Assembly: GCF_026155325.1 (NCBI RefSeq)
Contig: NZ_JAPFPW010000007.1
Location: 1-64,000, forward strand
Source of the DNA: Desulfobotulus pelophilus
Lineage (GTDB): Bacteria > Desulfobacterota > Desulfobacteria > Desulfobacterales > ASO4-4
Direction: 5' to 3'
Length of the DNA stretch: 64,000 nucleotides
Shown here: positions 1 through 38,377 of the stretch, one piece after another
Layout of the letters: every line of letters starts with the position of its first letter
How positions within the stretch are numbered: the stretch's first letter is position 1
Notes under the pieces: model-generated
The model's input: the letters and a program-made list of their open reading frames with translations, nothing else
Told to the model about the DNA's origin: nothing
Databases searched by the model: none
Made by a program: the position numbers and the translations under genes

Positions 1-544
1 TTACGGAAGGCTTGCCGCCACCGCCAGAGAACAGAGCCTCAATGTCATTCTGGCTCAGGGTATTACGGCCAAAATCCTCATCTTCGGCAACATCCGTGGT
101 CCTGCTTTCCTCACGGGCAGTACCCGCAAGATCTTCCGAGAACAAGGCATCTATGTCCGCCTGCCCCACAAGACCGGAGGTAAAAAGATCGGGCTCTCCT
201 TGGGAGGGAACAGATTGTACCGGTTTCGGCACTTCATTTTTTTCCGGCAGGGGCATATCAAAATCACCCCGCAGGAAAGCATCAATTTCCTCCTGACTGA
301 CCGTATCAAAATCGTTTTCCTTCGGCTCCAGCCCCCTGTCATTACCACGCATCAGGTTATCCAGATCAGAAAGATCCCCTTCGGGAATTTTTTCTCCTCC
401 CGCCGGATCGGGCAAACCATGATCAGAAGGCAAAGCCGCCGCCGACTCATCCCCAGAACCATCATCCAGCCCCCGCAACAGCGCATCAATGTCATCCTGC
501 TGGATCACAAGATCAATATCATTTTTTCCATCTTTTTCCGCCAT
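1..544 (-). CDS. FliM-N motif array protein, C-terminus cut by window edge
   Basis: An open frame of 181 codons starts at ATG 544 and runs off the left edge without a stop. The product is acidic and low in complexity. It carries four clear copies of a motif like the CheY-binding N-terminus of FliM: IQQDDIDALLRG (residues 14-25), VSQEEIDAFLRG (82-93), VGQADIDALFSE (126-137) and LSQNDIEALFSG (163-174). A weaker copy, DLSDLDNLMRG, is at 57-67. True FliM in this window has ILTQEEVDSLLDG at the same kind of position. The start lies 16 bp after the fliA stop, so it should be the distal gene of the flagellar export operon. No globular domain is visible in the part seen. A role in docking phospho-CheY or another FliM-N partner is inference. 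Confidence 0.8.
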   Translation of the reverse strand, partial: MAEKDGKNDIDLVIQQDDIDALLRGLDDGSGDESAAALPSDHGLPDPAGGEKIPEGDLSDLDNLMRGNDRGLEPKENDFDTVSQEEIDAFLRGDFDMPLPEKNEVPKPVQSVPSQGEPDLFTSGLVGQADIDALFSEDLAGTAREESRTTDVAEDEDFGRNTLSQNDIEALFSGGGGKPSV

Positions 545-560
545 GGTCCGCCCCTTTGGT

Positions 561-1295
561 TCAGGCCGTCATTTCAACGCCTCGCAGACGCGTACGCAGT
601 TTCACAAGGGCTGCGGCATGAATCTGACAGATGCGGGATTCCGTACGCTCCAGCACATCACCAATTTCTTTTAAGGTAAGGTCCTCAAAATAATACAGAG
701 AAAGCACCAGCTGTTCCTTTTCCGAAAGCCCGGCAATCACTTCTGCCAATCTGGCTTTCATCTCTTCTTCTGCCAGCATATCTTCCGGATTATCGGATGT
801 TGTCAGCTGATCCTGAAAGGTTTTTACCCCGTTTTCGCCCTTTTCTGTCCCCCGGATACTGGCATCCAGATTCAGGAGTGCGGCACCGTGGATTTCCGTA
901 AGAACACCCTGATAGACTTCCAAAGAAAACCCCAGGGCTTCTGCAACTTCCCTCTCTTCTGCAGGCCTCCCCTGTTCCCTTTCCACCGAGGCAATGGCCT
1001 TTTCCACATCCTGTGCCTTTTTTCGCAGTGAACGGGAAAACCAGTCCATGCTTCTCAATTCATCCAGAATGGCACCCTTAATGCGGAACTGGGCGTAGGT
1101 ACGAAACTTCACATCTTTTTCAGGATCAAACTTATCCACAGCATCCAGCAGCCCGAGGCTGCCGGCACTCATCAGCTCGTCCAGCGAAACGGATTGGGGA
1201 ATACGCATGGAAACCCGCAAGGCCACACTGCGAACCAGATCCGTATGGGCTTTGATCATGGATTCCCTTTTCTCAGCAGAGAGGCATGTCTTCAA
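561..1295 (-). CDS. fliA: Flagellar sigma factor FliA (sigma-28)
   Basis: The 244-residue product is a sigma-70-family factor of the FliA/WhiG type, which directs RNA polymerase to late flagellar and chemotaxis promoters. Region 2 includes LDELMSAGSLGLLDAV and FRTYAQFRIKGAILDELRS, followed by the DW-SRSLRKK segment typical of FliA. Region 4 near the C-terminus has LSEKEQLVLSLYYFEDLTLK and a helix-turn-helix ending ESRICQIH. The frame opens with TTG at 1295; the first in-frame ATG is at 1259, preceded by AAAAGGGA, so the true start may be 12 codons later. The TTG start gives an N-terminus of E. coli FliA length. It follows flhG in the same operon, separated by 48 bp. Confidence 0.95.
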   Translation of the reverse strand: MKTCLSAEKRESMIKAHTDLVRSVALRVSMRIPQSVSLDELMSAGSLGLLDAVDKFDPEKDVKFRTYAQFRIKGAILDELRSMDWFSRSLRKKAQDVEKAIASVEREQGRPAEEREVAEALGFSLEVYQGVLTEIHGAALLNLDASIRGTEKGENGVKTFQDQLTTSDNPEDMLAEEEMKARLAEVIAGLSEKEQLVLSLYYFEDLTLKEIGDVLERTESRICQIHAAALVKLRTRLRGVEMTA

Positions 1296-10543: not shown

Positions 10544-11065
10544 TCATGTGGGCCACAGAATGGTAAAGTCTGTAATATAAAGCCCCTGAACCCGAACACC
10601 CGACGCCTTTTCCACCAGATCCGTAAGTTCATACTTCAGCTTCAGTTTTCCCGACACACGTTCCCAGTTTTCCGCACGGCCAGCCTCCAGATGGTTGCGA
10701 ATGGCCACAAGAATCTTTTCCCGATGACGCAGCAGGGCAGGTAGTCCCTCCGGACCTTCTCCCGCCAGAATGGCAATGCCCAGCCGGAGAGGAAGGCGGA
10801 CGCCCTCTTCTACAGACACCCTGATTTCCATCACAGGAATCTGCCAGAGACCCGGAATCAGTGGCTGGCCCGGAGCAGCACTCTGCATGGCGGCTTCCGG
10901 CTCCATGGGAACTGGAGCCTCGGGGCCCCCGGACAGAAGAAAAGCAAACATCGTGCCCGTTACCACCATCACCCCTCCAAGCATGACCAGCCAGATCCAC
11001 AAAGCCAGAGGTCCTTTTTTCTGACGCCAGTCTACCCGTTGCCACAGCTTTATGTTACCGGACAT
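10544..11065 (-). CDS. fliL: Flagellar basal body-associated protein FliL
   Basis: The 173-residue protein has one N-terminal transmembrane helix (about 20-45) and a periplasmic FliL domain ending in GLYITDFTILWPT. FliL surrounds and supports the stator units. ATG 11065 has GGAGG at six bases; an upstream ATG at 11071 abuts the same site and is less likely. It overlaps the end of motB, linking it to the stator genes. Confidence 0.9.
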   Translation of the reverse strand: MSGNIKLWQRVDWRQKKGPLALWIWLVMLGGVMVVTGTMFAFLLSGGPEAPVPMEPEAAMQSAAPGQPLIPGLWQIPVMEIRVSVEEGVRLPLRLGIAILAGEGPEGLPALLRHREKILVAIRNHLEAGRAENWERVSGKLKLKYELTDLVEKASGVRVQGLYITDFTILWPT

Positions 11066-11705
11066 CCCCATCCTCCAGAATCAGAAAACTTACACGCCGG
11101 TTCCAGGCACGCTCACGGCTGCCCGCCTCCGGAAACAGATGGACGTCAACACTCTCCGCTGCAATCCCCAATCGGTCTGCGTCCATGCCCGCCAACGCCA
11201 CGAGATAGTTCCTTACGGCTCCGGCCCGCTGCAGGGCCAGCTTTCTGCCAGAATCTTCCATCATACCGGAATCCGGAAATCCCTGCACCATAACAGGCAC
11301 ATGGAGCGGGGCAAGCACATCGGAAACCGCCTGCAGCAGGAGTGCCGCCTCCGGCCGAAGACGAAACAAACCGACCTCAAACAGGCCATCGGATTCAAGA
11401 CGCAAGCGCAGGTGCTCCTGAGAGGTATCCACATGCAATTTTTCCGCCACTCCAGCAGGAAGCCGGGCAAGCTCGCGCCGGAGCCGCAGGCTCAGAGCTC
11501 CGGCCAGCCGGTCTCCTTCCGGTGCTTCATAGGACCTCTCCTGCACAAAAAAAGAAAACCCTTCTTGCAGGCGTTCGGCCTCCAGGGCTTTCATGGCATA
11601 CAGCATGACAAAAAAAGTCAGGAGCAGAAGCAGCATATCTGCAAAGGTCTGCATCCATGCCGTTTCCGGTTTTTTACCGGTTTTCTTTTTCAAGGGAATT
11701 ATCAT
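11055..11705 (-). CDS. motB: Stator protein MotB (with proton-binding Asp)
   Basis: The 216-residue MotB-type protein has one transmembrane helix (about 17-40) that includes WMQTFADMLLLLLTFFVMLY. The Asp at residue 23 matches the essential ion-binding Asp of MotB. A periplasmic OmpA-like peptidoglycan-binding domain follows (about 90-210), with RKLALQRAGAVRNYL. It overlaps the preceding MotB-like gene by the four bases ATGA. It is presumably the ion-conducting partner of MotA. Confidence 0.9.
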   Translation of the reverse strand: MIIPLKKKTGKKPETAWMQTFADMLLLLLTFFVMLYAMKALEAERLQEGFSFFVQERSYEAPEGDRLAGALSLRLRRELARLPAGVAEKLHVDTSQEHLRLRLESDGLFEVGLFRLRPEAALLLQAVSDVLAPLHVPVMVQGFPDSGMMEDSGRKLALQRAGAVRNYLVALAGMDADRLGIAAESVDVHLFPEAGSRERAWNRRVSFLILEDGDVR

Positions 11706-37497: not shown

Positions 37498-37875
37498 CTA
37501 CTTTACCAGAACTTTCTCTATCTTCTCCGCAATGGCTTCTGCCGTAAACGGCTTTACCACATAATTGGAAACCCCTGCCTGCACAGCTTCCACCACATTC
37601 TGTTTCTGCGCCTCTGCCGTTACCATGAGAAAGGGTATGTTTTTGTAGTCATCCATGGCACGTACAGCTTTCAGCAGCTCAAGGCCAGACATCTTGGGCA
37701 TGTTCCAGTCCGAAATAATCAGGTCGAAGTGACCTTTTTTCAACTCTTCAAGAGCCGTGGTTCCGTCATCAGCTTCCGTAATATTTGTAAAACCAAGCTG
37801 CTTAAGAATATTTTTAAGAATACGTCGCATGGTCGCAAAATCATCGACACAAAGAATTTTGATGGAAGTATCCAT
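37498..37875 (-). CDS. cheY: Chemotaxis response regulator CheY
   Basis: The 125-residue stand-alone receiver has the full active site: Asp 11 and Asp 12, phospho-acceptor Asp 56 (ISDWNMPKMSG), Thr 86 (MVTAEAQ) and Lys 108 (YVVKPF). These positions match E. coli CheY. Phospho-CheY should bind the FliM N-terminus and change rotation. It lies between the cheX gene and the FlrA-like gene. Confidence 0.94.
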   Translation of the reverse strand: MDTSIKILCVDDFATMRRILKNILKQLGFTNITEADDGTTALEELKKGHFDLIISDWNMPKMSGLELLKAVRAMDDYKNIPFLMVTAEAQKQNVVEAVQAGVSNYVVKPFTAEAIAEKIEKVLVK

Positions 37876-37915: not shown

Positions 37916-38377
37916 CTATCGCTCAAGACAGACCTCTATGGTAAACTGTCCCCCTTCTGTTGTGAAAGGGATCGCGATCTTCGGACCTTCCGTATAATGG
38001 GTAATGGTATGGTTTTTACCACTTACCACCGAAGGAATGGCAGCCTCAAACACCTTTCCAAGGCCCTCCAGCTCCCGGCGGGCCTGCCCGGAAATCATGT
38101 TGGTAATCTCGCCCACCGCATCTGCCACCTCATTGTTCAGCTCCGTCATCGGTTCCCCAAACATATTGGAAACAACCTTCAAAATGGAACCTTCATCAAA
38201 GGTTACAGCAATGGTGCCATTGGCAGCACCCGTGAGGCCAATAATTCCCGTCACATCCCCCCTGGCCACATCCTCTTTTTTCAAAAAAGGTTTCCCCGGT
38301 TTTGACTTAACAAAGGCCATGGTTTCCAGAACATTAATGGTTGCGTTAATAAAAGGGTTGATCAGTGTTGCATCCAT
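37916..38377 (-). CDS. cheX: CheX-type CheY phosphatase
   Basis: The 153-residue protein is of the CheC/CheX phosphatase family. It has one copy of the catalytic E-x-x-N motif (Glu 90 and Asn 93 in EITNMISGQARREL), which matches CheX rather than CheC with two. It begins DATLINPFINATINVLETMA, a common CheX start. It lies 40 bp upstream of cheY, the expected substrate. Confidence 0.88.
   Translation of the reverse strand: MDATLINPFINATINVLETMAFVKSKPGKPFLKKEDVARGDVTGIIGLTGAANGTIAVTFDEGSILKVVSNMFGEPMTELNNEVADAVGEITNMISGQARRELEGLGKVFEAAIPSVVSGKNHTITHYTEGPKIAIPFTTEGGQFTIEVCLER

Follow-up and report, generated by a model that had tools for sequence, protein, structure and literature searches.

The usual description of CheY-P has it docking on FliM, at one peptide per rotor subunit. 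In the window, the stretch of 64,000 nucleotides that we analysed (G000:C7:1-64000, starting at base 1 of contig C7 in the 3.66 Mb, 86-contig draft genome of Desulfobotulus pelophilus), a flagellar gene encodes several peptides of this kind in a row, which raises the question of what sort of protein carries them and what they would do there. The gene lies on the minus strand at positions 2..544, as an open frame running off the edge, and these 181 residues form the N-terminal part of the protein, its predicted cytoplasmic tail. Sixteen bp upstream of it lies the gene for the flagellar sigma factor (561..1295, minus strand), which matches Sigma70 r2, r3 and r4 and owes the name FliA to its place.

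A sequence-only reading of this DNA had counted at least four copies of a FliM-N-type motif in the chain. Using an array-motif matrix built from five genomes, of which most other genomes are independent, we found four, starting at residues 14, 82, 126 and 163 as that reading had placed them: IQQDDIDALL (motif 1; residues 14-23, 476..505), VSQEEIDAFL (motif 2; residues 82-91, 272..301), VGQADIDALF (motif 3; residues 126-135, 140..169) and LSQNDIEALF (motif 4; residues 163-172, 29..58), all on the minus strand. A degenerate motif on the same strand, LSDLDNLM (residues 58-65, 350..373), was left out of the totals. The pattern proposed for them, [SQ]-x-[DE]-I-D-x-[LF]-L, describes motifs 1 and 2 literally, but motif 3 ends in LF and in motif 4 E replaces D; a relaxed form of the pattern covers all four. 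In controls with 200 shuffles per protein, the matrix gave means of 0.42 matches or fewer and a maximum of three, compared with 1-18 in motif-bearing proteins.

The gene had also been described as cut by the window edge. It is cut there, but contig C7 itself ends at the same point, and we searched the rest of the genome for the full gene, as the sequence-only reading had proposed. The 181 residues gave two more matches, both in a 578-residue frame, open at its 5' end, with which contig C1 begins (L019:2-1738, plus strand); it holds 10 further motifs, then a membrane helix and then a folded C-terminal domain of predicted FliL type. This frame is very probably the remainder of the array gene, because the flagellar gene order continues across the break (flhA-flhF-flhG-fliA on C7 up to it, DUF6115-fliK-flgF-flgG on C1 after it) and is uninterrupted in the congeners G001 and G002, because the last 25 bases of C7 recur within the C1 array, and because the two contig ends have 11 bases in common. 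A 108-bp tandem repeat at the start of C1 (2.9 copies, 92% matching) is sufficient cause for the assembly break, and copies may be missing from it. With the gene split over two contigs in this way, its count is a lower bound: at least 14 motifs, 4 in the window and 10 on C1. The congeners have 15 (G002) and 18 (G001), and in G011 two contig pieces, with 17 and 10 copies, appear to belong to one gene of perhaps 27. Tandem DNA repeats of 105-108 bp, 87-92% matching, are found in the array genes.

How closely do these motifs resemble the FliM peptide? Across 641 copies, the successive positions are I/L/V, S (83%), Q (92%), D (65%), D (86%), I (87%), D (85%; E in 9%), any residue, L (90%) and L (66%) or M (23%). 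The literal consensus LSQxEIDxLL occurs in none of the 641, because at the position of E in FliM most array copies have D; [LIV]SQx[DE]IDxLL fits 198 of them and a looser form 372. The acidic position equivalent to Asp12 of FliM is retained as D in 85% and as E in 9% of the 641, E being found there in many copies of the own genus (DIEALL). We applied a second matrix, made from 28 FliM N-termini of the own genome and its relatives only (threshold: 99th percentile of the best score in 2000 shuffles). This check, also suggested by the sequence-only reading, placed window motifs 1, 2 and 4 and six of the ten C1 motifs above threshold, and window motif 3 and the other four C1 motifs below it.

A profile of 31 array motifs, from which FliM was excluded, was searched against 177,635 PDB sequences. 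FliM ranked first (residues 2-18, E 0.019) and second (E 0.023), values that are not significant alone, followed by a PKS docking segment (0.032) and troponin C (0.1). The second match is the peptide chain of entry 4iga, hit in two short pieces; the other chain of 4iga is CheY. The NCBIfam FliY model also matched at the motifs (E 9.4e-9 in G002, 4.5e-5 in the C1 part, 0.0038 in the window part), as did the FliM model (E 0.027 in the window part, 0.67 in the C1 part); all these matches lie far below the whole-protein cut-offs, no single stretch passes alone, and the same scan returned a sigma factor, a PASTA kinase and a FliL model at E 0.0017-0.018. The likeness to the FliM N-terminal peptide that had been proposed is thus supported at the sequence level, with FliM the best PDB match of a FliM-free profile, and CheY binding by the array motifs may be inferred from it. 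The PKS segment (PDB 2n5d, from a fusion of two PKS domains; SQADLDALLSAV) looks like an array motif, by a possible shared helix-docking mode or by chance.

FliM and the array share the ten-residue pattern [ILV]SQx[DE]IDxLL, but FliM has one copy near its N-terminus, whereas the array has many internal copies outside any C-ring protein. FliM of the own genome (9437..10414, minus strand) carries the single motif ILTQEEVDSLL at residues 4-14. We recovered FliM for 30 of 32 genomes with a match; its N-terminal motif fitted the pattern used in 28, always with E before V or I, and 26 of these read L[ST]Q-x-E-[VI]-D-[SA]-LL, the other two having N for D or K for Q. FliM of G026 has LSQDEIEALF further inside, and a pattern search of the recovered FliM of G055 found no motif. 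In the 17 motif-bearing genomes with FliM read, FliM has one copy each of L[ST]Q-x-EVDSLL, whereas the array is mostly [ILV]SQDDIDxL[LM]. The two kinds of peptide may therefore be tuned to different partners or affinities. FliY, to whose N-terminal CheY-binding motif the NCBIfam matches relate, is a C-ring protein and by its NCBIfam name a phosphatase, and only the N-terminal 41 positions of the model match the array. CheZ is a soluble phosphatase with a single copy of its CheY-binding peptide, and we liken it to the array by description alone. Its short C-terminal tail peptide likewise binds CheY outside FliM (PMC12270135). At two other loci (L138:2283-2777, minus strand; L139:2326-2877, plus strand) we observed FliN-like proteins with an N-terminal SQ[DE]DIDKLM of their own, adjoining a FliM with its motif; if both bind, these C-rings would have two CheY-type docking peptides per unit.

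The C-terminal region identifies the protein that carries the array. A transmembrane helix followed by ~130 residues is common to the own protein, G001, G002 and G043, although the G043 region is only 23% identical to the own one and had no match in Pfam. The own protein scored 25.8 bits with Pfam FliL (PF03748), above the cut-off of 24.6, and the congeners fell below it (G002 19.4, G001 17.1 bits). When 51 family members were scanned singly, 21 matched Pfam FliL at E<=0.01 and 30 had no such match; five other Pfam families matched one or two members each (E 0.004-0.01). A profile of the 51 members had two PDB matches at E<=1, and both were FliL (E 3.6e-8 and 5.1e-6). The AlphaFold model of the own C-terminal domain (pLDDT 84.6) retrieved FliL structures at Foldseek ranks 1-11 (TM by target 0.60-0.75, E 5.6e-4 to 2.8e-3), with stomatin/SPFH domains next. 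As modelled, the domain has the FliL fold.

We then examined 66 motif-bearing proteins with a transmembrane helix and at least 60 residues past it, after dropping three duplicate genomes; some of the 66, the own C1 part included, are cut at an end by their contig. They contain 588 motifs, 587 before the helix and a single weak one after it. Copies number 1-18 per protein, most commonly 8 or 9, at a median spacing of 35 residues (10th-90th percentile 24-66), and the linkers between them are 33% D+E. The part before the helix makes up 73% of protein length. Hydropathy gave one transmembrane helix, with a second, weaker peak in a few proteins, and the 15 residues before it hold more K+R than those after it in 64 of 66 proteins. 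By hydropathy and the positive-inside rule, a single membrane pass with the N-terminus inside is predicted, and the architecture common to the relatives would be an acidic, motif-bearing tail, one membrane helix and a periplasmic FliL domain.

In its one predicted helix, its periplasmic domain and fold and its place in a flagellar cluster, the array protein resembles FliL (PF03748; 7sgn of H. pylori, 6ahq/6ahp, 9hmf of C. jejuni). It differs in the tail, which is short in FliL: here, counted along the stop-to-stop frames of motif-bearing proteins, the first residue of the helix is at 78 to 775, leaving a predicted cytoplasmic part of ~80 to 775 residues with 1-18 docking motifs. The sequence-only reading had imagined a CheY-docking chain. 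The array and its likeness to FliM-N hold, but the chain appears to be part of a membrane-anchored FliL-type protein with at least 14 copies, which would locate the motifs at the stator instead of on an unanchored chain.

It also differs from FliL in gene position. FliL is expected directly before fliM, whereas the array gene follows fliA: of the 37 loci that we compared with flagellar references, 27 have it flanked by both fliA and the DUF6115 gene, nine are truncated or miss one of these neighbours, and at the last (G110), a fliM locus, the match to the C-terminal profile lies directly before fliM. In the own genome that place is taken by another membrane protein (10544..11071, minus strand), FliL by position only. 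Searches of Pfam and NCBIfam gave no match for it, the array C-terminal-domain profile none of significance, and the PDB a single non-FliL match (E 0.26); it is thus a putative second FliL of this genome, named by its place. The genome has a second PF03748 match elsewhere (C2:354222-354527; 31.5 bits, above the Pfam cut-off), within a 290-aa protein (L026:3776-4648) that starts like a lipoprotein, and by eye we recognised no flagellar neighbours.

The candidate ligand, CheY, is encoded in the window itself (37498..37875, minus strand; profile and PDB matches). It matches E. coli-type CheY in the PDB, in a group that includes 1f4v, at E ~1e-43. By eye, from the E. coli sequence and numbering, we take it to keep lysines 119 and 122 (in KPFTAEAIAEKIEK) and Tyr106 (in NYVVKPF), the printed alignments being to CheY proteins other than that of E. 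coli. Next to cheY is a gene of the CheY-P phosphatase family CheX (37916..38377, minus strand; family match), and a PilZ-domain gene is near. A second CheY, 87% identical, is encoded at G000:C5:173158-173526.

We consider it fairly probable that the array gene encodes an extra FliL-type motor protein whose tails dock many molecules of CheY-P, or of CheY-like proteins, beside the C-ring. By analogy with other FliL proteins, from which ring and stator contact are taken, the periplasmic C-terminal domain would sit at the MotAB stator; Borrelia FliL was modelled as a decameric ring round the stators with ten transmembrane helices (PMC9195833). One membrane helix would link this domain to the long acidic cytoplasmic N-terminal tail with its many FliM-N-like peptides, and each peptide would bind the alpha4-beta5-alpha5 face of activated CheY or a CheY-like receiver, as that of FliM does. 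In the FliM peptide on activated CheY, the first 7 residues are extended, residues 8-15 are helical and a Lys119-Asp12 salt bridge holds the complex (PMC7012829); in Caulobacter, changing Ile-Asp of FliM to Trp-Ala abolished CleD binding (PMC5677366). Because stator-ring tails adjoin the C-ring, the array might collect CheY-P around the motor and act as a local store from which FliM is supplied more fully and more evenly, with copy number setting the size of the store. Given docking, this feed-and-steady role is a guess among several, to which we allow a little under an even chance; our reason for ranking it above the others is that the anchor would bring the docking sites next to the C-ring. 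More tentatively, one may picture a stator ring with a cytoplasmic brush of at least 100 CheY-P docking peptides, a motor antenna that concentrates the signal, its gain changing in evolution as 35-residue units are added or lost in tandem. On the sequence, docking may feed FliM, hold CheY-P back or alter the stator, and the buffering of CheY-P and the competition with FliM that the sequence-only reading proposed are both candidate effects.

The same anatomy would suit a CheY-P-gated stator regulator, in which tail-bound CheY-P would alter stator assembly or torque through a putative coupling of tail and ring and act as chemotactic speed control or brake instead of feeding FliM. In other bacteria, FliL is regarded as a modulator of stators (PMC9195833), and some of the CheY-like Cle proteins that bind the FliM motif lower motor speed in Caulobacter (PMC7534056). 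However, a range of 1 to 18 copies suggests capacity, not a switch; we hold this role to be rather unlikely, if worth keeping in view. Alternatively, the array could withhold CheY-P from FliM, setting a threshold or slowing the response, with CheX then removing CheY-P. A decamer (as in PMC9195833) of 14-motif tails would outnumber the FliM sites, and the CheX gene adjoins cheY, but a sink or timer needs no membrane anchor at the motor, and we regard it as unlikely.

The own genome has 51 receiver-domain matches at E<=1e-8, CheY being one of them, so that the partner of the array may be another receiver protein. This number, and the consistent D-for-E difference from FliM, would also accord with peptides whose partner is a component of the rotor (FliN, FliM or FliG) or a different CheY-like protein and which tie the stators to the rotor. 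Yet the published partner of LSQxEIDxLL is CheY or a CheY-like protein (PMC5677366), and a tether of this kind seems to us quite improbable.

Selection on the motifs bears on whether they have a ligand at all. Between G001 and G002, the motifs show 8 nonsynonymous and 30 synonymous differences in 150 codons (dN/dS 0.058) and the linkers 128 and 107 in 444 codons (dN/dS 0.300), with similar pS (0.31 and 0.34); the motif class required a motif in both sequences, which favours a low dN/dS, but for this pair the 150 codons equal the full content of the 15 motifs of G002. The transmembrane and periplasmic part gave 0.144. Compared with the own window part, dN/dS was 0.070 for motifs and 0.437 for linkers, and with the own C1 part 0.126 and 0.214, synonymous sites being near saturation. 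Purifying selection is stronger on the motifs than on the linkers. That the tail is a low-complexity acidic stretch whose repeats spread by slippage, with no specific ligand, is very improbable: the 105-108 bp tandem repeats with 87-92% matching and the differing copy numbers of congeners would fit it, but motif dN/dS is 0.06 against 0.30 in linkers, and motifs are kept in other families despite different intervening sequence.

Whole-protein searches in relatives reached only 5 of 58 genomes, and profiles were needed to follow the array further; a degenerate DNA pattern for Q[DE][DE]ID matched 145 of 146 genomes and was dropped. Among 146 genomes of the order, the C-terminal profile matched 32 (25 of 104 genera; motif-free and G110-type matches counted in) and the motif profile 52 (FliM counted in). 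FliM was found in 32 of the 58 nearest genomes, and we divided its scores at a gap, by our own placement, into 20 high (E 6.8e-59 or better) and 12 low (E 2.0e-51 or worse). Proteins with at least two motifs occupy the fliA-DUF6115 place in 17 of the 20 high-scoring genomes; the C-terminal profile matches 15 of these, G022 was accepted by helix and length only, and G049 is cut before the helix. No more than a single motif match was seen in any of the 12 low-scoring genomes. A protein with one motif is encoded by G035, in which FliM was not matched.

We built a tree of 33 loci from FliA and FlhG. Its five motif-free versions (G040, G042, G094, G106, G137) group in a single clade (support 1.0), and the other 28 loci are motif-bearing. 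One gain or one loss, followed by copy-number changes, is the simplest history, on a midpoint-rooted tree with several weak deeper nodes whose loci were picked by profile matches and represent the genomes with a match. In the draft genome G064 (L048:4353-5360), a frameshift, through sequencing error or decay, divides the FliL-type gene, and a motif lies in the upstream frame.

In 247 genomes from the phylum, only the own genome had more than two motif matches at E<=0.01, a scan that understates the array (G022, with 14 by the array matrix, shows two, as does G258 with four), so that arrays of weaker motifs may have been missed. G258, from the same phylum and another family, encodes a 307-aa protein (L140:2295-3218, minus strand) with four FliM-N-like motifs and a degenerate one. 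It had no PDB match and weak matches to NCBIfam FliM/FliY only; its gene sits, by eye, between GAPDH-like and ABC-ATPase genes, and it is apparently an independent multi-motif protein.

For named genomes, a nine-member alignment was too divergent and we used a three-member one, which favours motif forms like its own; the 49 loci it returned are thus a biased census. Their named records include Desulfamplus magnetovallimortis, Desulfobacter vibrioformis, D. postgatei, D. latus, Desulfospira joergensenii, Desulfotignum, Desulfobacula, Desulforapulum and others, many of the records being MAGs. The D. latus record is G092, by identical proteins, and belongs to the own order, Desulfobacterales. The array is present in named isolates of these sulfate-reducing bacteria, among them Desulfobacter vibrioformis, D. 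latus and Desulfospira joergensenii.

Both FliL and the CheY-docking peptide are already known, and the role of FliL is debated. We found no prior description of their union, or of a multiplication of the peptide, in a literature search thin on subscription journals, and among the matches listed no title or abstract described a protein with repeated FliM-N motifs. With a docking peptide multiplied on a FliL-family protein, CheY-P would have a second target on the stator side, which would link steering and torque, and FliL would gain a clear signalling input in one lineage. The range from 1 to 18 copies, with perhaps 27 in G011, is a natural series for testing multivalent docking on the motor.
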